A stretch of 38,509 nucleotides of DNA from a virus: positions 1 to 38,509 of the IMG/VR virus record IMGVR_UViG_3300034021_000236, one strand, 5' to 3'. This document shows positions 4,723-36,641 of this stretch, piece by piece (the stretch's first letter is position 1; the number at the start of each line of letters is the position of its first letter). A model generated the notes under the pieces. That model saw nothing but the letters and a program-made list of their open reading frames with translations. It was not told where the DNA came from and searched no databases. The translations under genes were made by a program, and so were the position numbers.

Positions 4723-4757
4723 AGCCCCGGTCCGTCAGCCAGCCGGGGCTTTTATTT
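4723..4757 (+). terminator. Rho-independent terminator after dcd
   Basis: A perfect 8-bp stem AGCCCCGG (4723-4730) / CCGGGGCT (4743-4750) with a 12-base loop, followed by TTTATTT. It ends the plus-strand lysis/dcd transcription unit. The minus-strand integrase ends inside the loop (4735), so the convergent genes share it, but only the plus-strand side has a T tract. Confidence 0.85.
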
Positions 4758-5838
4758 GCGCTGCCACCAGCGCTGCTGCAGCGGCCGCGGCCTCGTCCAC
4801 CAGATGCGCATACCTGGCAGTGGTAAGCGGGCTGGCGTGACCAAGCAGCCCACCGATCTGCGGCAGGCTCAGGCCGGCGCTGACCGCCATGCTGGCGTAG
4901 CTGTGGCGCAGGTCGTGCACCAGCAGGTCGCGCAGCTGGGCCGCGGCGCACAGCTCCAGCCATAGCTTGCGGTATCCCACCAGTGGGTGATCGCCATCGC
5001 CTTGGATGATCCAGTCGCTGTTGCTGGCGGCACGCAGCTGCTGGAGCACCTCCAGCGCCGGTGGCGTCAGGTGGATCATGCGCTGGTGGCCATCGCTGCC
5101 GGTCTTATGCGCCTCAGGCGGCACCACCAGCACGCTGCCCTGCAGCCATTCCCAGCGGGCATTCTTGATCTCCGAGACGCGGCAGCCGGTCAGCAGCAGC
5201 AGGCGCACCAGCTGGGCAAAGCGCCACCGCACGCCAGCCACCGCGAACCCATCGAGGGCGGCCAGCAGCTGCTGTAGCTCCGCGCGCGTCAGATACCGGC
5301 GCCGCTTGCGCTCACCGTTGCCGGGCACCTTGGCGCATGGATTGTCAGACCGCAGGCCCCAGAGGATCGCAAGGTTGAACGCCTTGCGCAGCACTGCCAG
5401 CACGCGGTTGGCCTGTGTGCCGCCGATCGCGCGAATGAATTTCATCACCTGCGCCGTGGTCACCTGCTGCACCTTCATGGCGCCCAGCTTCGGCAGGATG
5501 TGCGCATCCCAGATGCTGCGGTAACCGGCGCGGGTGGATGGCCGCAGGCGTGGGTAATGCTCCGCCTGCAGCCGGTCGTACAGGTCCGCCACCGATGGGC
5601 CGCGGCGCAGCTCCTGCCGTGCGCTGGTGGGCGCCTGCCCCTGCGCAACGGCTGCCAGCAGCTTGTGCGCCTCTTCCCTGGCCAGCGTGCGGCTGATCAG
5701 GTTGGCGCGGCCGATCTTGTGATGCTGTTGCTTGCCGCCGGGTTCCCGGTAGCGCAGATACCAAGTCTCGACGCCGCTCGGGAGCTTCAGGATGCCCAGG
5801 CCGGGCACCTTCGTGTCTGCTTTCCATTCGCGCACCAT
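4735..5838 (-). CDS. int: Tyrosine site-specific integrase
   Basis: A 367-residue phage integrase. Residues 1-70 look like the AP2-like arm-binding domain (WYLRYREPGGKQQHHKIGRA). Residues about 82-175 are the SAM-like core-binding domain. Residues 180-350 are the catalytic domain with all expected residues: Arg220 (TGCRVSEI), Lys245 (AHKTG), His308 and Arg311 (HDLRHSYAS), His334 (LLGHAS) and Tyr343 (TTARYAHL). The C-terminus is an unusual Ala-rich run. ATG at 5838 opens directly beside the attP region, as is usual for integrases that use tRNA genes. It would recombine attP with a host tRNA-Lys gene. Confidence 0.95.
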   Translation of the reverse strand: MVREWKADTKVPGLGILKLPSGVETWYLRYREPGGKQQHHKIGRANLISRTLAREEAHKLLAAVAQGQAPTSARQELRRGPSVADLYDRLQAEHYPRLRPSTRAGYRSIWDAHILPKLGAMKVQQVTTAQVMKFIRAIGGTQANRVLAVLRKAFNLAILWGLRSDNPCAKVPGNGERKRRRYLTRAELQQLLAALDGFAVAGVRWRFAQLVRLLLLTGCRVSEIKNARWEWLQGSVLVVPPEAHKTGSDGHQRMIHLTPPALEVLQQLRAASNSDWIIQGDGDHPLVGYRKLWLELCAAAQLRDLLVHDLRHSYASMAVSAGLSLPQIGGLLGHASPLTTARYAHLVDEAAAAAAALVAAQIKAPAG

Positions 5839-21378: not shown

Positions 21379-22949
21379 TGGGCGTCCGTTCTGCACTGCG
21401 CGAGCTGTTCCGCCGCACACCGGAGACGCTGCCAGCACCACGGCGGCGGATGTATGAGGGCGCGAAGGTCAGCCGACTGACGAGCGACTGGGTGACGGGC
21501 GGCACCAGCGCCGACGCTGAGATCAAGGGCAGCCTGCCGAGATTGCGCAACCGCTCGCGTCAGCTGGTGCGCGACAACGACTATGCGCGCCAGGCAATCC
21601 GCGCGGTGAAGAACAACGTGATCGGCACCGGCATCAGGATGCAGGCGCAGGTGCGGATGCAACGCGGCGGCGGCCGGCTGGATCAGACGGTCAATGATGC
21701 GATTGAGAACGCCTGGGCAGTGTGGGGCCGCAAGGACAGCTGCCACACGGCGGGCCGGTTGAGTTTCAGTGACATCGAGCGACTTCTGGTGGGGTCGATG
21801 GCCGAGAGCGGCGAGGTGTTCGTGCGGATGGTGCGCCAGCCGTTCGGGCGCAGCAAGGTGCCGTTCGCTCTGGAGATCATCGAGAGCGACCTGCTGGATG
21901 ACACCTACACCGGCGGCAGCACGGTCGAGGGCAACGAGTGGCGGATGGGCGTCGAGCTGGACCGCTGGGGCCGGCCGGTGCGCTATGCGTTCCTGACCAA
22001 GCACCCTGGCGATAGCGGTGTTGGCGGCACGCCGGTGGGCGCACCTCGCCATCGCTTCGTGGCTGCCGAGGAGGTGATCCACCTCTACCTGATGGACCGC
22101 CCCGGCCAGACCCGCGGCGTGCCGATGCTGGCCAGCGCTATCCAGCGGCTGCACATGGTGGCCGGCTACGAGCAGGCCGAGGTGGTGCGGGCACGCGCCA
22201 GCAGCGCGCTAATGGGCTTCATCACCAGCCCCGAGGGCGAGCTGATGGGCGATGAGGTCTACGACGGCGAGCGGGTGAGCAACTTTGAGCCGGGCGTGTT
22301 CAAGTATCTGGCTCCGGGCGAGAGCGTGACGGTGCCGCAGCTCGATGCGCCTGACGGCCAGCTGGAGCCGTTCATGCGGGCGATGCTGCGCGCGATGGCG
22401 GCCGGTGTGGGCTGCAGCTACGAGACGATCAGCCGCGACTTCAGCCAGACCAACTACAGCAGCAGCCGGCTGAGCCTGCTGGAGGACCGCGAGAACTGGA
22501 AGGCGCTGCAGCACTTCATGATCGAGAACTTCCACCGGCCGGTGTTTGAGGCATGGCTGGAGATGGCGGTGCTGAGCGGCGTGCTGAACCTGCCGGCCTA
22601 CGAGACCGACCCCGAGCGCTACCGCCAGGTGCGGTGGATGCCACGCGGCTGGGCCTGGGTGGATCCGGCCAAGGAGGTGGACGCCTACAAGGAGGCGGTG
22701 CGCTGCGGGTTCAAGACGCAGGCGGATGTGGTGGCTGAGCAAGGCGGCGACCTGGAGGAGCTGCTGCTGGCCCGCAAGGCTGAGGTGGATCGCGCTGACG
22801 AGCTGGAGCTGTATTTCGACAGCAACCCCGAGCACGAGCACGAGATGGCGGAGACCCCTGAGCAGGAGATCAGCGAAGAAGCGCCAGAGCCGACCGATAA
22901 TGTGGAAGACAACCTAGATGCAGAGGACAGCGATGGACCTATCGCGTGA
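21378..22949 (+). CDS. Portal protein (lambda GpB family)
   Basis: 523 residues. Family features: RNRSRQLVRDNDYARQAIRA (helical N-terminal segment), NNVIGTGIRMQAQV, GEVFVRMVRQ, PFALEIIESDLLDD, VIHLYLMDRPGQTRGVPMLA and GCSYETISRDFSQTNYSSSR, all as in lambda-type portals (PF05136). The C-terminal 60 residues are strongly acidic (DELELYFDSNPEHEHEMAET). It forms the dodecameric ring at one capsid vertex for DNA entry and exit. The acidic tail overlaps the start of the protease-capsid gene. Confidence 0.93.
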   Translation: MGVRSALRELFRRTPETLPAPRRRMYEGAKVSRLTSDWVTGGTSADAEIKGSLPRLRNRSRQLVRDNDYARQAIRAVKNNVIGTGIRMQAQVRMQRGGGRLDQTVNDAIENAWAVWGRKDSCHTAGRLSFSDIERLLVGSMAESGEVFVRMVRQPFGRSKVPFALEIIESDLLDDTYTGGSTVEGNEWRMGVELDRWGRPVRYAFLTKHPGDSGVGGTPVGAPRHRFVAAEEVIHLYLMDRPGQTRGVPMLASAIQRLHMVAGYEQAEVVRARASSALMGFITSPEGELMGDEVYDGERVSNFEPGVFKYLAPGESVTVPQLDAPDGQLEPFMRAMLRAMAAGVGCSYETISRDFSQTNYSSSRLSLLEDRENWKALQHFMIENFHRPVFEAWLEMAVLSGVLNLPAYETDPERYRQVRWMPRGWAWVDPAKEVDAYKEAVRCGFKTQADVVAEQGGDLEELLLARKAEVDRADELELYFDSNPEHEHEMAETPEQEISEEAPEPTDNVEDNLDAEDSDGPIA

Positions 22950-24822
22950 CCTTGAAGGGCAACTGTTGAAGCGCTCTGAGGTTGCTGACTTCACGGTCAG
23001 CGATGACGAGCGCACCATCGAGTTCCCGTTCTCCAGCGAGTACCCAGTGGCTCGCTATTTCGGCAACGAGGTGCTGCAGCATGACACTCGCAGCGCTGAC
23101 TTGAGCCGCCTGAACGATTCGGCGCCGCTGCTGTTCAACCACGATCCCGACAAGGTGATCGGCGTGGTCGAGCGCGCCTGGATCGACGGCGAGAAGAAGC
23201 GTGGCTATGCCACGGTGAAGTTCAGCCGCAACGCCTTTGCGCAGGAGGTGCTGGCTGATGTGCGCGACGGCGTGCTGCGTAATGTTTCCTTTGGCTACGC
23301 AATCAGCGAAATGGAGCAAAGAGGCAGCGGCGACTTCGTTGCTACCAGCTGGGCTCCTTACGAGATTAGCGTGGTTAGCATACCTGCAGACCCCACTGTG
23401 GGTATGGGTCGGTCACTTGAGACCGATCCTGCGGCCCCAGCCGCATCACCAACCCCCGAAACAGAACCTGAGGTTCCGATGGAAAACACCCCCGATCTGA
23501 CGGCGGTGCGGGCTGAAGCGGCTGCTGAGGCTGCCAAGGCCGAGCGCGCCCGCATCAGCGGCATCACCGCCCTGACCGAAAAGCACGGCATGGCCGATCT
23601 TGGCCGTCAGCTGATTGAAGGCGGCCGCAGCCTTGACGAGGCCCGCGCTGCTGTCCTCGACAAGCTGGGCGCCAAGCCGGTTGAGACCGTGGCTCCCGTT
23701 GAGATGGCCACCGAGGAGCGTGCCGGTTACAGCATCACCGCTGGCATCCGCGCCATGCTGACCGGCGACTGGTCCAGCCGCGAGGCCGGCCTGGTGCGCG
23801 AGCTGAGCAAGGAGGTGGAGAAGTCCGGTGTGTCCAAGACCACCGAGCGCTCCTTCTTCGTGCCGTTCGCAGCCCTGAGCCAGCGCGCCACCTATGTGAC
23901 CTCGGGCGCCACCACCGGCGGCAACCTGGTCGCCACCGATCTGCTGGCCGATGACTTCATCGAGTTTTTGCGGAACAACGCCCTGATGCTCCAGCTGGGC
24001 GTGCGCACCATGCCTGGCTTGGTAGGCAACGTGGCGATCCCCCGCCGTTCCGGTGTGGCTTCGACCTACTACCTGAGCACCCAGACCACCGCCATCACCC
24101 AGTCGGAGTCCACCTTCGACCAGGTGACCATGAGCCCCAAGAACCTGGCCGCTCTGTCCAAGTACAGCCGCCAGACCCTGCTCCAGGGCACCCCTGGCAT
24201 CGAGGAGCTGGTGCGTCGTGACCTGACCGATGGCATCAACCTGGCCATCGACCTGGGCATCCTGAACGGCTCTGGCTCCAGCGGCCAGCCCACCGGCATC
24301 ATGCAGACCTCCGGCATCGGTTCGGTGGCCATGGGCACCAACGGTGGCGCGATCACCGTTGAGAAGGTGGTGGATCTTGAGTCTGCTGTGATGCAGGCAA
24401 ACGGTGTGGTGAACGCCGCAAACGTGGCCTACCTCACCAACTACAAGGTGTCCGCTGCTCTCAAGAAGCTGCGTGCTGGTGGCTCCACCACCGGCGATGG
24501 CCCCTTCTTGGTGAACGACCAGCTGAACGCCATCGGCCGCGGTCCTACCCCCGCCAACTTGAACGGCTACCCTCTGGCCCTGACCAACCAGGTTCCCAGC
24601 AACCTGACCAAGGGCTCCAGCAGCGGCGTTTGCTCCGCTCTGGTGATGGGTGACTTCAGCCAGGCGATGGTCGGCTTCTGGGGCAACGGCCTCGAGATCA
24701 CCGTGGGCGAGGATCAGGACGACTTCAGCAAGGCTCTGACCAGCGTTCGCGGCATCGTCTCCTACGACGTGGCCGTGCGCGATCCCAAGAGCTTCGCCGC
24801 CATCCTGGACATCACCACCTGA
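22933..24822 (+). CDS. Prohead protease fused to HK97-fold major capsid protein
   Basis: 629 residues from ATG 22933, preferred over ATG 22918 because AGGA stands 5 bases upstream. Residues 1-155 are a U35/HK97 prohead protease: LLFNHDPDKVIG with His70, and RNVSFGYAISE with Ser119. Residues 165-290 are Ala/Glu-rich helices, the usual scaffold (delta) region. Residues 295-629 are an HK97-type capsid protein (RATYVTSGATTGGNLVATDL, LSKYSRQTLLQGTPGIEELV, GSGSSGQPTGIM, YDVAVRDPKSFAAI). One polyprotein thus supplies protease, scaffold and shell, and the protease would release the mature capsid subunit, probably just after the scaffold region. Confidence 0.92.
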   Translation: MDLSRDLEGQLLKRSEVADFTVSDDERTIEFPFSSEYPVARYFGNEVLQHDTRSADLSRLNDSAPLLFNHDPDKVIGVVERAWIDGEKKRGYATVKFSRNAFAQEVLADVRDGVLRNVSFGYAISEMEQRGSGDFVATSWAPYEISVVSIPADPTVGMGRSLETDPAAPAASPTPETEPEVPMENTPDLTAVRAEAAAEAAKAERARISGITALTEKHGMADLGRQLIEGGRSLDEARAAVLDKLGAKPVETVAPVEMATEERAGYSITAGIRAMLTGDWSSREAGLVRELSKEVEKSGVSKTTERSFFVPFAALSQRATYVTSGATTGGNLVATDLLADDFIEFLRNNALMLQLGVRTMPGLVGNVAIPRRSGVASTYYLSTQTTAITQSESTFDQVTMSPKNLAALSKYSRQTLLQGTPGIEELVRRDLTDGINLAIDLGILNGSGSSGQPTGIMQTSGIGSVAMGTNGGAITVEKVVDLESAVMQANGVVNAANVAYLTNYKVSAALKKLRAGGSTTGDGPFLVNDQLNAIGRGPTPANLNGYPLALTNQVPSNLTKGSSSGVCSALVMGDFSQAMVGFWGNGLEITVGEDQDDFSKALTSVRGIVSYDVAVRDPKSFAAILDITT

Positions 24823-27495: not shown

Positions 27496-30072
27496 ATGGC
27501 GATGAACATGAACGCCGCGCTGAAGATCCGCGCCGACGTTGATGGCGGCAACAAGATCGTCGCGCTCAACCGCGGGCTGACCTCGCTGGAGACCTCGGCC
27601 AAGGGCGTCAGCGGCGCCATGCGGGGGCTCACAGGCGCCTCTGCGGGCCTCTCCGGGGCGCTGGGCACCCTTGCTCCGCTGCTGAGCGTGGCGGGCCTCG
27701 CGGGCATGGTGAAGGGCACGCTGGATGCGGCCGACAGCATGAACGACCTGTCGCAGGCCACTGGCGTATCGGTCGAGGCGCTGAGCCGCTTCAACAAGGC
27801 CGCGGCGGTGAGCGGCACCAATCTGGAGGGCGTGAGCAAGGGCCTAGTCAAGTTGAACAAGGCCATGGTGGACGCTGCTGCCGGCGGCAAGGAGTCGGCA
27901 GCCACCTTCCAAGCGTTGGGCGTCAACGTGAAGAACGCTGACGGTTCGCTGAAGTCTGCCGACCGGGTGATGCTGGAGGTGGCCAACCGCTTCAAGGCCA
28001 TGCCTGACGGTGCGGCCAAGACGGCGCTGGCGCTGCGGTTGTTTGGCAAGTCCGGTGCGGAGCTGGTGCCGCTGCTCAACATGGGCGGCGATGCCATCGA
28101 CAAGATGAGCACCAAGATGACCACCGCCTTTGCGCAGAAGGCGGATGAATACAACGACAAGCTGGCGATGCTTGGCGGCAAGGTGCGTGCGCTCGGCATG
28201 GATTTGACCATCGCGCTGCTGCCGGCGCTGGATCAGATCACTGATGCGTTGACGGCGGCGGTGACCGGATTCAACAGTTTGCCCGAGCCGTTGAAGGCCG
28301 CGGCCGTTGGGGCCGCCACGCTGGCGCTGGCGTGGGGTCCGCTGAGCGGCCTACTGAAGGGCGGCCTAAGCGTGGTCGCATCGCTGGCCAACGGCATGGA
28401 GATTCTGCGCTACCAGACCGCGCTGGCTGGCGGTGTGATGCCGATGCTGATCGGGCACCTTCAGGGCCTGCGGTTGGCGATTTTGGCGATTCCGGGCTGG
28501 GGCTGGGTGGCTGCTGGCGTGACGGCGCTCGGGCTGCTGGGCAAGGCGCTCTACGACAACAACGAAGGCTTCAGGAGCTGGGTCAACAACGTCGGCACGA
28601 TCATCAGCACCGACTTTCAGAACGCCATGAAGAACGTGGCGGCATTTGGCAGGGCAGCTGCTCAAGGCGTGAGCAACGCTTGGCAGTCACTGGTGGGCGC
28701 CACCAGCAGCGCTGCAACCGCCATCGGCAATGCATTTGCTGGCCCGTTCGGCTTCATTGCCAACGCCGCACGGCAAGCGTTCGGGCAAGTGCAAAAAGCA
28801 ATCGCAACGCTGTGGAACGCCTTGCCTGAGCCGATCCGCAAGGCGCTGGGCTCAGCCGGCAAGATGGCGGTCAACCTGGCTGGCGCCAGCCCTGTCGGTT
28901 ACCTTGCCGGCGTGGGCGTGCGGGCGTTCCAGATGGGGCCGCAGCGGACTGCCAACAACCGCGCCAGCAAGGACGAGCCCGGCCCCAACAGTGGCCTGAA
29001 CACCTTTACGCCTGACCTGAGCGCGCTGGGCAGCAACAGCGGCAGCGGAAACAGCGCCAAGGCTGCGGCGGACAAGGCCCGGCAAGCGCGTGAGGCGCTG
29101 ACGGCATCGAGGAGCGCGCTGGAGCAGGCCAAGGCCGAGCTGGCCATCCTGCGCGAGGCCGATCCGGTCAAGAAGATCCAGCTGGAGTACGACGAGAAGC
29201 GCCGTGCGGTGATCGACGCCGCCAACAAGGAGATGGCACGGGCGCTGAGCGTTGAGCAAGAAGCAAACATCCAGCGGACGCGCAGCATTGAGCTGCAGAA
29301 GCTCGACGTGCAGGAGAAAACCGAGCTGAAGGACGCCTACAAGAAACTGGGCGACGAAGCCTATGAGGCGGCCTTGAAAACGGCCCAGTGGGGCAGCGCA
29401 ACGGAGACCACCAGAGGCGTTCTGGCCGGCTTCCGCGATGGCATCAGCTCCTATTTGGAGAGCATCGGCACGCTGGGACAAGGCATCAGCAGCCTGACGC
29501 AGAACGCCTTCAAGGGCCTAGAAGATGCCATCGTGACGCTGACCACCACCGGCACCTTCAGCTTCCGGCAGTTTGCGCTGTCGATCGTGGAGGAGACCAC
29601 CCGGATGGTGACGCGGCTGCTGATTATCGCGCCGATCCTGCAGGCAATCCAAAGCCTGCTGCCGGGTGGCGGCTTCCCCAGCGGCGCTGGCCTGCTCTCC
29701 AAGGGCAAGCTGTTTCCCGGCGGGGTCTTCGCTAATGGCGGCGCGTTCGACCGTAACGGCCTGCAGGCGTTTGCGATGGGCGGCATCGTCAACCGCCCCA
29801 CCATCTTCCCCTTTGCGAACGGTGGCGCTGGCCGGCTCGGCCTGATGGGTGAGGCCGGTCCAGAGGCGATCCTGCCCCTGCGGCGTGGCGCTGATGGCAA
29901 GCTCGGCGTAGCCGGTGGCGGCAGCACCAGCATCACCGTGAACGTGGATGCCAAGGGCACCAGCGTGCAGGGCGATCAGGGTCAAGGCGCAGCGCTGGCG
30001 CGTGTGATCGCGCAGGCGGTGCAGGCAGAATTGATCAAGCAGAAGCGGCCTGGCGGCCTGATCCCGGCATAA
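27496..30072 (+). CDS. Tail tape measure protein
   Basis: 858 residues. It is helical with long coiled coils at both ends (NRGLTSLETSAKGVSGAMRG; ARQAREALTASRSALEQAKAE, then EYDEKRRAVIDAANKEMARA). Hydrophobic segments lie in the middle (LRLAILAIPGWGWVAAGVTA). A lambda-type C-terminal domain has TTTGTFSFRQFALSIVEET, TRLLIIAPILQAIQSLLPGG and GLMGEAGPEAILPLRRG. It sets tail length and is probably ejected into the cell during DNA entry. A rough 1.5 angstrom per residue would give a tail of about 130 nm. Confidence 0.93.
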   Translation: MAMNMNAALKIRADVDGGNKIVALNRGLTSLETSAKGVSGAMRGLTGASAGLSGALGTLAPLLSVAGLAGMVKGTLDAADSMNDLSQATGVSVEALSRFNKAAAVSGTNLEGVSKGLVKLNKAMVDAAAGGKESAATFQALGVNVKNADGSLKSADRVMLEVANRFKAMPDGAAKTALALRLFGKSGAELVPLLNMGGDAIDKMSTKMTTAFAQKADEYNDKLAMLGGKVRALGMDLTIALLPALDQITDALTAAVTGFNSLPEPLKAAAVGAATLALAWGPLSGLLKGGLSVVASLANGMEILRYQTALAGGVMPMLIGHLQGLRLAILAIPGWGWVAAGVTALGLLGKALYDNNEGFRSWVNNVGTIISTDFQNAMKNVAAFGRAAAQGVSNAWQSLVGATSSAATAIGNAFAGPFGFIANAARQAFGQVQKAIATLWNALPEPIRKALGSAGKMAVNLAGASPVGYLAGVGVRAFQMGPQRTANNRASKDEPGPNSGLNTFTPDLSALGSNSGSGNSAKAAADKARQAREALTASRSALEQAKAELAILREADPVKKIQLEYDEKRRAVIDAANKEMARALSVEQEANIQRTRSIELQKLDVQEKTELKDAYKKLGDEAYEAALKTAQWGSATETTRGVLAGFRDGISSYLESIGTLGQGISSLTQNAFKGLEDAIVTLTTTGTFSFRQFALSIVEETTRMVTRLLIIAPILQAIQSLLPGGGFPSGAGLLSKGKLFPGGVFANGGAFDRNGLQAFAMGGIVNRPTIFPFANGGAGRLGLMGEAGPEAILPLRRGADGKLGVAGGGSTSITVNVDAKGTSVQGDQGQGAALARVIAQAVQAELIKQKRPGGLIPA

Positions 30073-30075
30073 ACC

Positions 30076-30417
30076 ATGGCAGCTACGACCTTCACCTGGA
30101 CACCCAGCTTCCCGGCGGCGCAGAACAGCCAGCCAACGGTGCGCACCGTCAAGTTTGGCGACGGCTACGAGCAGCGGCTGCGCTATGGCCTGCGCACTGA
30201 CCTCAAGCAGTGGGATCTGGTGTTTGAGAACCGCACCGACACCGAGCGCGATCAGATCCTCACGTTCCTTTCAGCCCGCGGTGGCGTCGAGCAGTTCAAC
30301 TGGACAACGCCGCACGGTGAGACGCGCGCGTTCGTGTGCGAGAGCTGGAGCAGCGAGCACAGCGCCTGCAACCTCAACAACATCAACGCCAAGTTCCGTG
30401 AGGTGATTGATCTATGA
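30076..30417 (+). CDS. Minor tail protein M (lambda gpM-like)
   Basis: 113 residues. TFTWTPSFPAAQNSQPTVRT, VKFGDGYEQRLRYGLRTDLK, WDLVFENRT and QILTFLSARGGVEQFNWTTP match the phage minor tail M / distal-tail family. It overlaps gpL-like by 4 bases. In lambda gpM joins the tip complex after L. Confidence 0.88.
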   Translation: MAATTFTWTPSFPAAQNSQPTVRTVKFGDGYEQRLRYGLRTDLKQWDLVFENRTDTERDQILTFLSARGGVEQFNWTTPHGETRAFVCESWSSEHSACNLNNINAKFREVIDL

Positions 30418-31985
30418 CGATGATGTTTGAGGAGCTGATCAAAAGCTCCCCGTTCGCCATCATCGACCTGTACGAGCTGCACCTGAATGCAGCGGTACAC
30501 GGCACCAACGAGATCTACCGCTTCCATAACGGCGGCAACGGCAAGTTCACGAACACCGGCGAGATCATCTGGAAGGGCAACAGCTACATCGCCCTGCCGG
30601 TGCAGGCGGAGGGCTTCGAATACAGCGGCAACGGCCAGCTGCCGCGGCCAAAGCTCAGGGTGGCCAACCTGCTGAGCACGATCACGGCAATCATGATCGC
30701 GGTCAATGAGACCACGCCGGGCAACGACCTGACCGGCGCGAAGTTCATCCGCATCCGCACGCTGAGCCGGTTCCTTGATCCGGTCAACTTTGACGGTGGC
30801 GTCAACCCGTTTGGCACGCCGGATCCCGATGCTGAGGCGCCGCAGGAGATCTACTACGTCGATCGCAAAACAGCAGAAACACGCGACGTGGTGGAGTTTG
30901 AGCTGGCTGCAGCGTTCGATCTGGCGGGCGTGCGCGCGCCCAAGCGTCAGTGCATCAGCAACATCTGCCAATGGGAGTACCGCGGCGCTGAGTGCGGCTA
31001 CACCGGCACCAACTACTTCGATGAGAACGACACCCCGCTCAACAGCGCAGCGGCGCCTAACTTCCCGGCCGGCAGCGCCACGCTGAGTGCTGGGTCGAGC
31101 ATCTTCCTAGAGCAGCAGATCGTCTCAGCCAATGGCTGGTACATCGCGCGCGTTGGCCCGCGCGGCGACTTCTTCATCCGCGACAAGTCACAGCAGCAGA
31201 GCCTCGGGTTTTTGTGGCAGACCAACACCGGCGGGCTTGGCGGTTACCGGCTGACCATGCAGACAGACGGCAACTTAGTGCTCTACACCTCAGGCAATGC
31301 GGTGGTCTGGCAGACCAACACCGCGAACCTCGGGGCACCGACCAGCATCACCTACCTGAACTGGCTGCCGGATGACATCCGCGCCGGCCGCAACGGCGCC
31401 TTCTTCCATGAAGTGCTCGGCAATGCCGACAGCTACTCGGCGGGCACCAACCGCACGGCCAACTACACCTTCAACGTCGGCAGCCGGTCGATCACGCTGC
31501 AGCTCTCAGCTACCTGCGAGACGATCCCATCGGCTGAGGCGCCGCTGTACCCGTCAGCAACGCGCCGGTGGCGGCAGACCAGTGGATCAGGCGCAGCGGC
31601 CACCGTGGTCAGCTCCACGGGGCTCTGGCGGCTGAATGAGACCTTCAGCGCAACGATCACCACCAGCCTAGGCAACCCGTTTCGCGCGCCGGTGGGATAC
31701 GGCACGCTCACGACCGTTTCGGCGGTCTACCAGGTGAACGCAGCAACGGGGTTCGCCAACCGCGCGGTGATCCAGAACGACGCCAACCTAGTGCTGCTCA
31801 CCGCTGGTGATGTGCAGGTATGGCAGGCGGGCATCTCGCAGGCCGGTGAGCCTCGCATCCAGACCGGCACCGGCGATCCGCTGAAGGATGTGTGCGGCAA
31901 GCGCCTGACGAGCTGCAAACTGCGGTTTGGTGAAAACGCCGAGATCCCGTTCGGATCCTTCCCTGGCATCGGAGGCTATGTGTGA
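30414..31985 (+). CDS. Minor tail protein L with bulb-lectin-like insertion
   Basis: 523 residues, about twice lambda gpL (232). Residues 1-200 are the gpL N-terminal part ending [19 protein letters not shown] (Cys180, 185, 194). Residues 490-523 are its C-terminal end [17 protein letters not shown] (Cys494, 501). In lambda gpL, cysteines of this kind hold an Fe-S cluster. Residues about 205-488 interrupt this cluster and carry bulb-type lectin repeats: [20 protein letters not shown] (QxDxNxVxY complete at 283-291) and [20 protein letters not shown] (454-462, final Tyr replaced). The insertion may give the tail tip a mannose-type sugar-binding face. Fe-S binding is inferred from the family. 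Confidence 0.85.
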
Positions 31986-32692
31986 TGGCGTGGAAGGATG
32001 ACGCGCTGGCCCATGCGCTGAAAGAAGCGCCGCGGGAGGCGTGCGGCTTGGTGGTGGTGATCAAGGGCCGCCGGCGGTATTGGCCCTGCCGCAACCTGGC
32101 GCCAACGCCGCAGGACTTCTTTATTCTTGACCCGGACGACTACGCCGCGGCCGAGGATGCCGGCGACGTGTTCGCCATCTTCCACAGCCACCCGACTACT
32201 CCGGCGGTGCCCAGCGATGCCGATCGCATGGCGTGCGAGCAAAGCGGCCTGCCGTGGTTCATCGTCAACCCCGGCACTAAGGCATGGTGCGAGCACCGCC
32301 CCAGCGGCTACCAAGCGCCACTGATCGGCCGGCAGTGGGTGTGGGGCGTCAGCGACTGCTGGACGCTGGTGCGTGACTGGTACAGCGCCTGGGGCCTGCA
32401 GCTGCGCGACTGGCAGCGGCCAATCAACCCGGTGGACTTCAACGCTGCGCCGATGTTTGACGACTGCTGGCAGGAGACCGGCTTTGTTGATGTGACCGGC
32501 GGCGAGATCAAGGTGGGCGACATGCTGCTGATCTCGATGGACTCACCGGGCCTGAACCACTGCGCTGTCTACGTTGGCCAGCAGATGATCCTGCATCACA
32601 TTCGCGGCCGGCTCAGCTCGCGGGATGTCTACGGTGGCTACTATCAGAAGAACACGGGCCGTGTGCTCAGACACTCCAGCAGGTGCGCGTGA
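31985..32692 (+). CDS. Tail tip protein K: JAMM plus NlpC/P60 peptidase domains
   Basis: 235 residues from ATG 31985 (TGATG overlap). Residues 1-105 are a JAMM/MPN domain: [10 protein letters not shown] and [15 protein letters not shown] (His67, His69, Ser77, Asp80). Residues 112-235 are NlpC/P60: [14 protein letters not shown] (Cys125) and [10 protein letters not shown] (His192). This is the lambda gpK arrangement, thought to loosen peptidoglycan or process a tail protein during infection. Confidence 0.92.
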
Positions 32693-33273
32693 TGCTGCGA
32701 GTCATCAAGGTTTACGGGGCATTGGCCAAGTTCCTCGGGCAGCGCAGCTTTGAGGCCGATGTCAGCTCACCGGCTGAGGCGGTGCGGTTCCTGCTGGCCA
32801 ACTTCCCGCAGCTGGAAGGGCACATGGTCAAGCATCACTACAAGGTGAGCGTGGGCCGCTTTGAGCTGGAGGCTGGCGCACATCCTGAGCAGCTGCAGTA
32901 TCCGTCCGCCGCTGGCGAGCCGATCCGCATCGTGCCGGTGGTGCAAGGCGCCGGCGCTGTCGGCCGGATCATTGCGGGCGTTGCGCTAGTTGCCGTGGGC
33001 CTGCTGGTGCCGGGCATCGGCGCGCTTGGCGTTCAGCTGCTGGTGGGCGTCGGCGCCTCGCTAGCTCTTGGCGGGGTAGCGCAGCTGCTGACACCGATGC
33101 CGCAGATGCAGACCGGATCTGACAGCACCAACGACCCGCGCAAGTCCTACAGCTTCAGCGGCATCCAGAACGTGTCGCGCCAAGGTGTGCCGGTGCCGAT
33201 CGTCTACGGCGAGACCGTTGTGGGCAGCGTCACCATCTCGGCTGGCATCAACACCGAGGAGGTGCCGGTCTGA
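32692..33273 (+). CDS. Tail assembly protein I (lambda gpI-like)
   Basis: 193 residues from ATG 32692 (TGATG overlap; a GTG 9 bases earlier is also in frame). The N-terminus IKVYGALAKFLGQRSFEADV is the gpI ubiquitin-like fold. A glycine-rich hydrophobic stretch follows (RIIAGVALVAVGLLVPGIGA, then LGVQLLVGVGASLALGGVAQ). The C-terminus YSFSGIQNVSRQGVPVPIVY is the conserved gpI/J-contact motif. It overlaps J by 1 base. Confidence 0.88.
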   Translation: MLRVIKVYGALAKFLGQRSFEADVSSPAEAVRFLLANFPQLEGHMVKHHYKVSVGRFELEAGAHPEQLQYPSAAGEPIRIVPVVQGAGAVGRIIAGVALVAVGLLVPGIGALGVQLLVGVGASLALGGVAQLLTPMPQMQTGSDSTNDPRKSYSFSGIQNVSRQGVPVPIVYGETVVGSVTISAGINTEEVPV

Positions 33274-36200
33274 TGGATGAGCTGATTGTTGGCGCAGGTG
33301 GCGGTGGCGGTGGCGGCGGTAAAGGCGGTGGCGGCGCACCGGCCTCGCCATCGGTCACGCGCGACAACCTCGAATCACGCCAGTTTGCGCGCGTCATCGA
33401 CCTGCTGAGCGAGGGCGAGATCGAGGGCTTCCCGGCCCAGCGCAGCTACACCCCTTTCACGACCGCTTGGTACAACGCGGCACTGAAGGACATCTACTTC
33501 AACAACACCCCGGTGCTGCGCGATGGCGCCGACCCCGCATCAACGCTCACGCGCGCGGACCTCAATTTTGAGTACAGCTCGATCAGCTTTCGGCTGGGCA
33601 CGCAAAGCCAGAGCTACCTGACCGAGATCGGCACCTCCACGCAAAGCGAGGTGCCGGTGAACGTGAAGGTGACGCAGGCTGCGCCTGTGACCCGCACCAT
33701 CACCGACACCGACGTGAACGGCGTGCGCGTCACCCTATCGGTGCCGGCGCTACAGATCTTCCGCGCCAACGGCAACGTGGATGGCCGGCAGGTGGAGTTT
33801 CAGATCCAGACCTCCTACAACGGCGGCCCGTACACCACGGTCATTCAGGACTCCTTCACCGGCCGCACGGCTGACCTGTATCAGCGCCGCTATCGCATTG
33901 ACCTGACGCAGGCGCCGCCGGTATCGGTGCGCGTGGTGCGGCTGACAGCAGATGCGCCGCAGAGCGGCTCTGAAAGCATCCAGGACGAGATCTTCTGGGC
34001 CAGCTACACCGAGCTGATCTACGCCAAGACGACCTACCCAAACAGCGCGGTGATCGGCATGACGCTGAGCGCCGAGCAGTTCAGCAACATTCCCACCCGC
34101 TCCTACCGAATCCGGGGCATCAAGGTGCGGATCCCCAACAACGCCACGGTGGATGCCACCACGGGCCGGCTGATCTACAGCGGTGTGTGGAATGGCACCT
34201 TCGCTGCTGCGCAATGGTGCAGCGACCCTGCCTGGATCCTGTGGGACCTCCTGACATCGACCCGCTACGGGTTCGGTGATCACATCAGCGCCAGCCAGCT
34301 GGATAAGTGGGCGTTCTATGCCGCCAGCCAATACGCCAGCGCGCTGGTGCCCGATGGCTTTGGCGGCACCGAGCCGCGGTTCTCCTGCAACATAAACATC
34401 CAGACGCAGGAGGACGCCTACAAGCTGATCAACGACATGTGCTCGGTGTTCCGGGCCATGCCGTACTGGAGCACCGGCAGCCTGACGATCGCGCAGGACC
34501 GCGACGCCGACCCCAGCTACATCTTCACCCAGTCGAACGTCACCGAGGAGGGCTTCAGCTACAGCGGCAGCAGCCTCAAGACCCGCCACACCGTCGCGGT
34601 GGTCAGCTACCTGGACCTGGAGACCCGCGACATCGCCTACGAGGTGGTGGAGGACGCCGCCGGCATCAGCAAGTTCGGCGTGGTCAAGGCGGAGGTGTCG
34701 GCCTTTGCCTGCACCAGCCGCGGCCAAGCGCGGCGCATCGGTGAGTGGCTGCTGTATTCCGAGCAGAACGAAACCGAGGTGTGCAGCTTCAGCACCGCGA
34801 CCGCCGAGGGCATGGTGGTGCGCCCTGGCATGGTCATTCAGGTGACCGATCCGGTGCGCGCTGGTCGCTTCCGTGGCGGCCGCATCACTGGTGGCACCGC
34901 GCAGGCTCTCACGCTGGACCGCTCCGCCGAGGATCTGTTCGCGGACGGTATGCCGGCCACCATCGACTTCAGCGTGATCCTGCCCGATGGCACCACGCAA
35001 ACGGTCGAGGGCATCGCCGGCACGGCGCTTAACGGCAGCACGCTGACCCTGCCGTCTGCGTTGCGTGCGGTGCCGCCAGCTGGCGCGCCATGGGTGATCG
35101 GCACCACCGACCTAGAGCCATCGCTGTGGCGCGTGCTGAGCGTGCAGGAGCAGGAAGACGGCGTGTTTGCCATCAGCGCACTGGCGCATGACCCCAGCAA
35201 GTACGACTACATCGAGCGGGATGTGCCGCTGCAGCCGCGTGATGTGACGGCGCTCGACACCACACCCTCGACGCCCACCGGCCTGCAGGCATCAGAACTG
35301 CTCTACGAAAGTGGCGGGCAGGTGTTCAGCAAGGTGCTGGTGTCATGGCAGCCGGTGCAGTCTGCCGCGCGCTATGAGCTGCGCTACCGCGTGGACAGCG
35401 GCAACTGGACGGTGGTGGCCACCCGCTCACCCGACACCGAGATCCTCAACTCACTGCCGGGCCGCTACGAGTTTGAGCTGACAGCACTGAGCCCCGGCCT
35501 GCGCCGCTCTGGCATCACCACCCTCACCTACACGGCGCTGGGCAAGACCGCTCCACCGGCAACCATCCCCGATCTGTTCATTGCGCCGATCGACGACAAG
35601 AACGCCGAGCTGTATTGGCCGCAGTCGGTGGATCTCGACGTGCGCATCGGCGGGCAGATCCGCATCCGCCACACGCCCAACATCGGCGTCAACGCCACTT
35701 GGGGCCGCGCCAACGACATCGTGCCGGCGGTGGCTGGCAGCAGCACCCGCAAGATCGTTCCGCTACTGGAGGGCACCTACTTCATCCGTGCGGTGGACTC
35801 CAGCAACAACGAATCGGACGGCGTGGCATCGGTGGTGGTGGACCTACCCGAGCCGCAGGATCTGCTGCTGATCCAGACCTACCGCGAGGACGACGACAGC
35901 CCGCCTTTCCAAGGCACCCGCACCTCAATGATCTACAGCGCCGACGAGGCGGGCCTGACGCTGGACGCAACCGGCGAGGTGGATGAGATCACCGACTGGG
36001 ATGCGGTGACGAACATCGACTACTACGGCGCCACCAGCAGCACCGGCAGCTATGAGTTCCTGAACACGCTGGACCTCGGCGCGGTCTACGACATGGACCT
36101 GCGCTCGATCCTGCAGACCCGCGCGTTTGAGCCGGGCAACTACGTGGACGACCGCAGCGAGGACATCGACCTGTGGGATGACATCGACGGCGACGACCTG

Positions 36201-36641
36201 AGCGCCACCAACGCCAGCCTTTATGTGCGCGCCACCAACGACAACCCGAGCGGTACGCCGACGTGGGGCCTGTGGCAGCCGTTCGTCAATGGCACCACCC
36301 GCGGGCGTGGCTTCCAGTTCAAGCTGCAGGCAGCGACCAGCAACCCGACGCAGAACCTGATCGTGGAGCAGCTGGGTGTGGTGACGCAGTTCCAGCGGCG
36401 CACCGAAACGCAGCGCAACCTCAGCAGCGGCGCCGGCACCTACACGGTCACGTTCCCGAAGGCGTTTTATGCCACGCCCAGTGTGGGCATCACCGCGCAG
36501 GACATGGCGACCGGCGACTACTTCACGCTTTCTAACGCGACACGAACCGGCTTCCAGATCACATTCAGGAACAGCGGGGGTAGCATTGTGAACAGGAACT
36601 TCGATTACCAGGCGGTCGGCCACGGCCGGGAGATCACCTGA
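33273..36641 (+). CDS. Central tail tip / host specificity protein J
   Basis: 1122 residues. After a Gly-rich start (residues 8-21) come the conserved J motifs: ESRQFARVIDLLSEGEIEGF, DIYFNNTPVLRDG, SYRIRGIKVRIPNN, CSDPAWILWDLLTSTRYGFG and EPRFSCNINIQTQEDAYKLI. Residues about 665-760 form a fibronectin-III-like domain (TPTGLQASELLY, RYELRYRVDSGNWTVVA), followed by a second beta module and a C-terminal fibre-contact region. It forms the tip hub and contacts the receptor or the fibres encoded downstream. Confidence 0.93.
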   Translation: MDELIVGAGGGGGGGGKGGGGAPASPSVTRDNLESRQFARVIDLLSEGEIEGFPAQRSYTPFTTAWYNAALKDIYFNNTPVLRDGADPASTLTRADLNFEYSSISFRLGTQSQSYLTEIGTSTQSEVPVNVKVTQAAPVTRTITDTDVNGVRVTLSVPALQIFRANGNVDGRQVEFQIQTSYNGGPYTTVIQDSFTGRTADLYQRRYRIDLTQAPPVSVRVVRLTADAPQSGSESIQDEIFWASYTELIYAKTTYPNSAVIGMTLSAEQFSNIPTRSYRIRGIKVRIPNNATVDATTGRLIYSGVWNGTFAAAQWCSDPAWILWDLLTSTRYGFGDHISASQLDKWAFYAASQYASALVPDGFGGTEPRFSCNINIQTQEDAYKLINDMCSVFRAMPYWSTGSLTIAQDRDADPSYIFTQSNVTEEGFSYSGSSLKTRHTVAVVSYLDLETRDIAYEVVEDAAGISKFGVVKAEVSAFACTSRGQARRIGEWLLYSEQNETEVCSFSTATAEGMVVRPGMVIQVTDPVRAGRFRGGRITGGTAQALTLDRSAEDLFADGMPATIDFSVILPDGTTQTVEGIAGTALNGSTLTLPSALRAVPPAGAPWVIGTTDLEPSLWRVLSVQEQEDGVFAISALAHDPSKYDYIERDVPLQPRDVTALDTTPSTPTGLQASELLYESGGQVFSKVLVSWQPVQSAARYELRYRVDSGNWTVVATRSPDTEILNSLPGRYEFELTALSPGLRRSGITTLTYTALGKTAPPATIPDLFIAPIDDKNAELYWPQSVDLDVRIGGQIRIRHTPNIGVNATWGRANDIVPAVAGSSTRKIVPLLEGTYFIRAVDSSNNESDGVASVVVDLPEPQDLLLIQTYREDDDSPPFQGTRTSMIYSADEAGLTLDATGEVDEITDWDAVTNIDYYGATSSTGSYEFLNTLDLGAVYDMDLRSILQTRAFEPGNYVDDRSEDIDLWDDIDGDDLSATNASLYVRATNDNPSGTPTWGLWQPFVNGTTRGRGFQFKLQAATSNPTQNLIVEQLGVVTQFQRRTETQRNLSSGAGTYTVTFPKAFYATPSVGITAQDMATGDYFTLSNATRTGFQITFRNSGGSIVNRNFDYQAVGHGREIT

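Follow-up and report, generated by a model that had tools for sequence, protein, structure and literature searches.

In phage lambda, the Fe-S cysteines of the hub protein gpL are residues 173, 182, 205 and 212, and the iron-binding domain lies at the outer surface, with a function described as still to be characterised (PMC10721106). The C region of gpL has been termed hypervariable in a recent paper (PMC13243795). The iron-binding domain is split in the hub protein of the Rhodobacter capsulatus gene transfer agent RcGTA (g13) by a domain described as oligosaccharide-binding, at residues 168-249 (PMC7296036), and in the hub protein of roseophage R4C by a domain described likewise, at residues 162-243 (PMC10276861). 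For R4C, horizontal acquisition of this domain and a role in host adhesion have been suggested (PMC10276861). In lactococcal skunaviruses, a carbohydrate-binding module inserted into the evolved Dit protein improves adsorption to polysaccharide-bearing hosts (PMC6669499, PMC10688798).

We have identified a gpL homologue of doubled length in which the Fe-S domain is interrupted by a predicted B-lectin that is itself interrupted by a second domain, referred to here as the inner domain (Table 1). The window, a stretch of 38,509 bases, is an entire virus record. The 523-aa protein matches Pfam family PF05100 at 2.5e-58 (197.2 bits against a gathering score of 25), the PHROGs minor tail protein family phrog_18 at 2e-85, and lambda gpL (8iyk_L) at 9e-22 by sequence and 2e-13 by fold. 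Its gene is located between M and K-I-J in the lambda-like order H (27496-30072), M, L, K, I, J. The gpL identity given to this protein in the original prediction is thus borne out by Pfam, PHROGs, PDB sequence, fold and gene order.

The phage is probably temperate, given a tyrosine integrase encoded at 4735-5838 (-). Among the phage records listed, its head protein is closest to that of Synechococcus phage S-LBS1 (38% identity), and this sequence relationship makes a cyanobacterial host plausible. S-LBS1, the closest listed relative of the head module, has no annotated gpL and is absent among the gpL matches listed. A tRNA search of the phage sequence found none. The gene at 22918-24822 (+) matches families of both major head proteins and head maturation proteases (phrog_617, phrog_80), and its product is probably a protease-capsid fusion. 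The C-terminus of the gpJ homologue (residues 1057-1108; 36441-36596, +) has a weak match to the H-type lectin family PF09458, with 22.1 bits against a cut-off of 24, and is possibly a candidate second glycan-binding part at the tip.

Table 1. Features of the gpL homologue, neighboring genes and related loci. Coordinates refer to the window unless a locus is named.
Feature	Residues	Coordinates	Strand	Basis
gpM homologue (context)		30076..30417	+	phrog_14
gpL homologue, 523 aa, with nested insert		30414..31985	+	ATG start, ORF call, Pfam/PHROGs/PDB
gpL N-terminal hub domain (HDI-type) and first half of Fe-S domain	1-211	30414..31046	+	PF05100 match 31-213; Foldseek to 8iyk_L
Fe-S ligand 1	Cys185	30966..30968	+	Alignment to lambda Cys173
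Fe-S ligand 2	Cys194	30993..30995	+	Alignment to lambda Cys182
Whole insert	212-491	31047..31886	+	Missing from relatives L063, L065-L079
B-lectin subdomains I and II	~215-305	31056..31328	+	Profile search, AlphaFold, Foldseek
Lectin repeat I, degenerate motif site	247-257	31152..31184	+	Intact in L101, L124, others
Lectin repeat II, strict QxDxNxVxY (QTDGNLVLY)	283-291	31260..31286	+	
Inner domain (unit exchanged in nature), flanked by lectin subdomains II and III	~306-446	31329..31751	+	
B-lectin subdomain III	~447-488	31752..31877	+	Foldseek, joined-profile search, Pfam
Lectin repeat III (QNDANLVLL, Y to L)	454-462	31773..31799	+	
gpL C-terminal part, second half of Fe-S domain, stop	492-523	31887..31985	+	
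Fe-S ligand 3	Cys494	31893..31895	+	Alignment to lambda Cys205
Fe-S ligand 4	Cys501	31914..31916	+	Alignment to lambda Cys212
gpK homologue, JAB and NlpC/P60 (context)		31982..32692	+	
gpI homologue (context)		32683..33273	+	phrog_32
gpJ homologue (context)		33273..36641	+	
gpJ-like hub proteins with inner domain		L306:1253-5716, L308:1280-5734, L309:1274-5734		Profile scan

The 280 extra residues (212-491) separate Cys194 from Cys494, the second and third members of the Fe-S cysteine set. A search for gpL homologues with and without the insert had been proposed, and scans of viral contigs gave both kinds. The insert-free relatives (L063, L065-L079) are ~240-250 aa in length with flanks that are 55-65% identical, and at the empty site they have 'YFDENDxPV', a few residues, and then 'DVCGKRLSSC'. 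The empty site locates the insert between Fe-S ligands 2 and 3, in agreement with the ~280-residue insertion originally proposed. Cysteines 185, 194, 494 and 501 are shared by all aligned proteins whose sequence spans these positions, whether or not they have the insert (one row of the alignment ends before residue 185); in 14 members, expansion of the loop places the second cysteine a few residues further on. A set of five cysteines had been claimed; the protein has six, and the set corresponding to that of lambda consists of these four. The remaining two lie outside the Fe-S set, C180 being A or V in 14/60 and C368 being S in most. The Fe-S region was poorly modelled by AlphaFold (pLDDT <50 at residues 166-198 and 490-498), as was the gpL core.

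The insert profile, A2, matches pyocin L1 at 3.7e-20 and also plant agglutinins among PDB sequences, indicating that the resemblance to lectin motifs is not due to chance. AlphaFold predicted the insert with a pLDDT of 93-97 over most of its length. In Foldseek, the predicted model matched the Gastrodia lectin 1xd5_C with a TM of 0.90 and an rmsd of 2.1 (over 259 alignment columns, the target being 111 residues long) and 1xd6 with a TM of 0.88. Because the 111-residue lectin is matched nearly whole across 259 columns, subdomain III appears to close the fold across the inner domain; matches of 84 columns (TM ~0.65) cover two lectin subdomains only. For a joined-lectin profile, residues 308-444 (in the numbering of the 523-aa protein) were removed from eleven sequences and the PDB search was repeated. 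The best PDB-lectin E-value improved from 3.7e-20 to 1e-29, and the joined profile matched whole lectins in one stretch (1npl: 10-118 on 4-105). The score of the protein against Pfam B_lectin (PF01453) was 20.7 bits intact and 29.0 bits without the inner domain, both below the gathering score of 32.4, which is a score threshold and not a structural feature; the joined lectins of two relatives exceeded it (32.9 and 33.2). The gain from joining, the fold match and the rise in Pfam score together indicate that the insert holds one complete three-subdomain B-lectin, predicted to be built from residues ~215-305 and 447-488. A beta-prism lectin fold had been set beforehand as the point on which the original prediction could be refuted, and the fold stood, with AlphaFold, Foldseek and the joined profile in agreement. 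What had been described as a bulb-lectin module in the Fe-S loop is indeed there, but the insert is not wholly lectin, as approximately half of it is the unrelated inner domain. Two other divisions of the insert were rejected: the motif at 454-462 does not mark a second lectin domain and lies in subdomain III of the one lectin, and the entire insert is not a lectin, as residues 306-446 have no lectin signal and fold alone in the model.

Modelled by itself in AlphaFold, the inner domain reached a pLDDT of 94.7 and a pTM of 0.88, and it is predicted to fold independently. There was no match to it among PDB sequences or, for the domain of the 523-aa protein, in PHROGs; Pfam gave no convincing family, and nothing convincing was found among PDB folds (best Foldseek E 0.27, probability 0.06). 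This domain may itself be new. In a profile scan, it was found in gpL adjoining the lectin and in three proteins of 1,485-1,488 residues (L306, L308 and L309), where it occurs as two tandem copies and no lectin is present (E 2e-25 for L306). Elsewhere in its sequence, the L306 protein gives matches to tail proteins from Synechococcus and Microcystis phages, and neither the L306 nor the L308 protein matched Pfam. From the tail-protein matches and an N-terminus that looks gpI/gpJ-like by eye, we infer that the three are gpJ-like hub proteins.

Two of the lectin-bearing loci, L039 and L040, show no difference over 1,213 nt upstream of gpL and on through its first 915 nt, nor over the final 232 nt of the gene and 702 nt beyond. 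Their gpL difference is limited to the inner domain, with versions of 155 and 165 residues that are 57% identical, and the borders of the swap (...WATNTD and NNYLSMQ...) are the domain borders seen in the models. The swap was observed in metagenomic assemblies, not isolates; the two loci come from different metagenomes, and the versions each recur in a further metagenome (L055, L053). Such a clean swap indicates that the inner domain is exchanged in nature. In the pair L042/L046, identity is 0.98 in the core, 0.96 in the lectin and 0.72 in the inner domain. Divergence is also centred on the inner domain in L133/L135 and L024/L025, less sharply than in L039/L040, and in all three of these pairs faster evolution is possible instead of exchange.

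Since close relatives cleanly exchange the inner domain, the nested lectin looks like an exchangeable host-recognition part. We consider it probable that this gpL is a hub protein displaying an accessory glycan-binding device, with a complete B-lectin between Fe-S ligands 2 and 3, a second domain nested between subdomains II and III, and an exchange that changes specificity. Three lectins would project sideways at the surface of the tail tip and take part in adsorption. The lectin would contribute glycan affinity and a platform that presents the inner domain, and specificity would shift when phages that are otherwise nearly identical exchange the latter. The confinement of the swap to the inner domain points to this domain as the variable part in recognition, framed by a lectin that may or may not bind sugar itself. 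L039/L040 constitutes a natural experiment in this regard, as a single domain of ~160 residues differs and its recognition target is therefore directly testable.

The exact QxDxNxVxY motif at 283-291 and the degenerate copy at 454-462, with matching flanks, are all present as originally listed; the first repeat at 247-257 had been overlooked, and so had the independent domain of ~140 residues that separates the third repeat from the first two. Each repeat contains a tryptophan (W268, W299 and W470) that is invariant or nearly so in profile A2. Strict motifs number one of three in the 523-aa protein and 0-3 among its relatives, with three in L101, L124 and L127, none in L129 and L135, and none throughout one large clade. 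At least some copies may therefore lack affinity for mannose-like sugars or have a structural function. A mannose specificity, as first proposed, is unsupported with one strict motif of three and with many relatives that have none, and the ligand is not readable from the motif, since pyocin L1 prefers D-rhamnose over mannose (PMC3916391). These counts fit an alternative that we regard as unlikely, in which the B-lectin is a mere scaffold with its sugar sites largely lost and the receptor is contacted by the inner domain alone. A scaffold agrees with the swap in L039/L040 being confined to the inner domain, with the greatest divergence in the other pairs falling there too, and with the tandem, lectin-free copies of this domain in the gpJ-like hub proteins. 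However, two or three strict motifs are kept in several lineages (L101, L124, L127, L039), and purifying selection on the lectin is strong. Medians of dN/dS over 24 pairs were 0.046 for the core, 0.061 for the lectin and 0.081 for the inner domain, and such low values indicate that all of these parts are maintained. The insert diverges faster than the core; in the core-identity band of 0.6-0.7, identity was 0.65 in the core and 0.38 in both the lectin and the inner domain.

In a tree of gpL cores from 131 sequences, the 47 that bear a lectin are set apart from all others by one branch (SH-aLRT 98), the remainder being 72 without an insert and 12 with other inserts. A single gain of the lectin insert would be the simplest reading of this sample, which is non-exhaustive (at most 80 loci per scan). 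The insert was absent from 50,697 phage records (tblastn, E 0.01), and a search of genome contigs with the insert gave loci aligned to the lectin part only. The Fe-S loop of gpL is an insertion hotspot that may be empty or hold a lectin or a coiled-coil-like segment. That the insert is a structural decoration, lending stability to the hub-gpJ cone or to the Fe-S domain and making no contact with the host, seems to us improbable. Many relatives with cores 55-65% identical have no insert at all, so their assembly does not require one, and clean exchange as seen for the inner domain typifies parts that face the host. In favor of a decoration, a sugar-binding role is not obvious for other inserts found at this position or close by, which are coiled-coil-like in L198 and S-CBS4 and made of beta-rich repeats in L222. 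The metagenomic origin of the contig, and a reading frame broken inside the insert in one relative (L058/L098, same contig), might raise suspicion of an artefact of assembly or frameshifting, or of foreign DNA in decay, but this explanation has next to no probability and is already refuted by conservation, with the frame kept in dozens of independent contigs, dN/dS at 0.06-0.08 and the lectin-bearing gpLs on one side of that well-supported branch.

Further variation was observed in this region of gpL. Coiled-coil-like inserts in the same Fe-S loop were seen in L187, L197, L198, L200, L203 and L083 (S-CBS4 gp036), and beta-rich inserts of ~220 residues directly after the Fe-S motif in L222, L224, L225, L230 and L236. 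The four-cysteine segment is lost entirely in the gpL homologues L080 (phage MED4-184) and L082 (MH327491), the latter of which has an insert of ~140 residues near residue 126.

If gpL is a hub that displays a glycan-binding device, as we favor, host recognition in lambda-like siphophages would be extended to this protein, and a role as acceptor site for adhesion modules would be a candidate reason for the frequent rebuilding of its outward-facing Fe-S domain. We tentatively raise the further possibility that the inner domain represents an undescribed family of tail-hub domains with no fold relative found in the PDB, exchanged as a precise cassette within the lectin frame, where the conserved lectin repeats to either side would provide both a platform and homology for recombination. 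A lectin-framed cassette of this kind, if real, would be a modular way of changing host specificity at the tail tip.

The protein shares with lambda gpL (8iyk_L) and with the T1 and F2-pyocin homologues an N-terminal hub domain and a C-terminal four-cysteine Fe-S domain, and, with lambda, the gene order; it differs in that all three are without an insert, the loop between the second and third cysteines being ~22 residues in lambda. Like pyocin L1, the Gastrodia lectin and the snowdrop and garlic agglutinins (PF01453), the predicted lectin has a three-subdomain beta-prism and a tryptophan per repeat; of its three QxDxNxVxY sites one is strict, and it differs in being a single module in a phage hub that is interrupted by ~140 residues. 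The evolved Dit of lactococcal skunaviruses is similar in carrying, at a comparable position, a carbohydrate-binding module in a tail-tip ring protein that is present or absent between close relatives, and differs in carrier (Dit), module fold and Gram-positive hosts. In a literature search with most subscription journals outside its scope, no description of gpL with a B-lectin came up. RcGTA and R4C resemble it in layout, as a gpL-type hub there likewise has a four-cysteine iron-binding domain split by a putative sugar-binding domain. The claim that a glycan-binding domain at this place would be unusual was thus overstated, given that both of these hubs are described as having an oligosaccharide-binding domain there. 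Their domain is ~80 residues long and is likened to the insertion domain of LKA1 gp49, not to a B-lectin, and the passages describing it mention neither a second domain nested within it nor its exchange in nature. No RcGTA hub chain was among the 50 fold matches listed for the insert, and its fold and sequence matches were to B-lectins; the two folds would therefore differ, as judged from matches and description. A sugar-binding domain within the gpL-type Fe-S domain is already reported for RcGTA and R4C, and it is the predicted B-lectin fold at this site that appears to be new.
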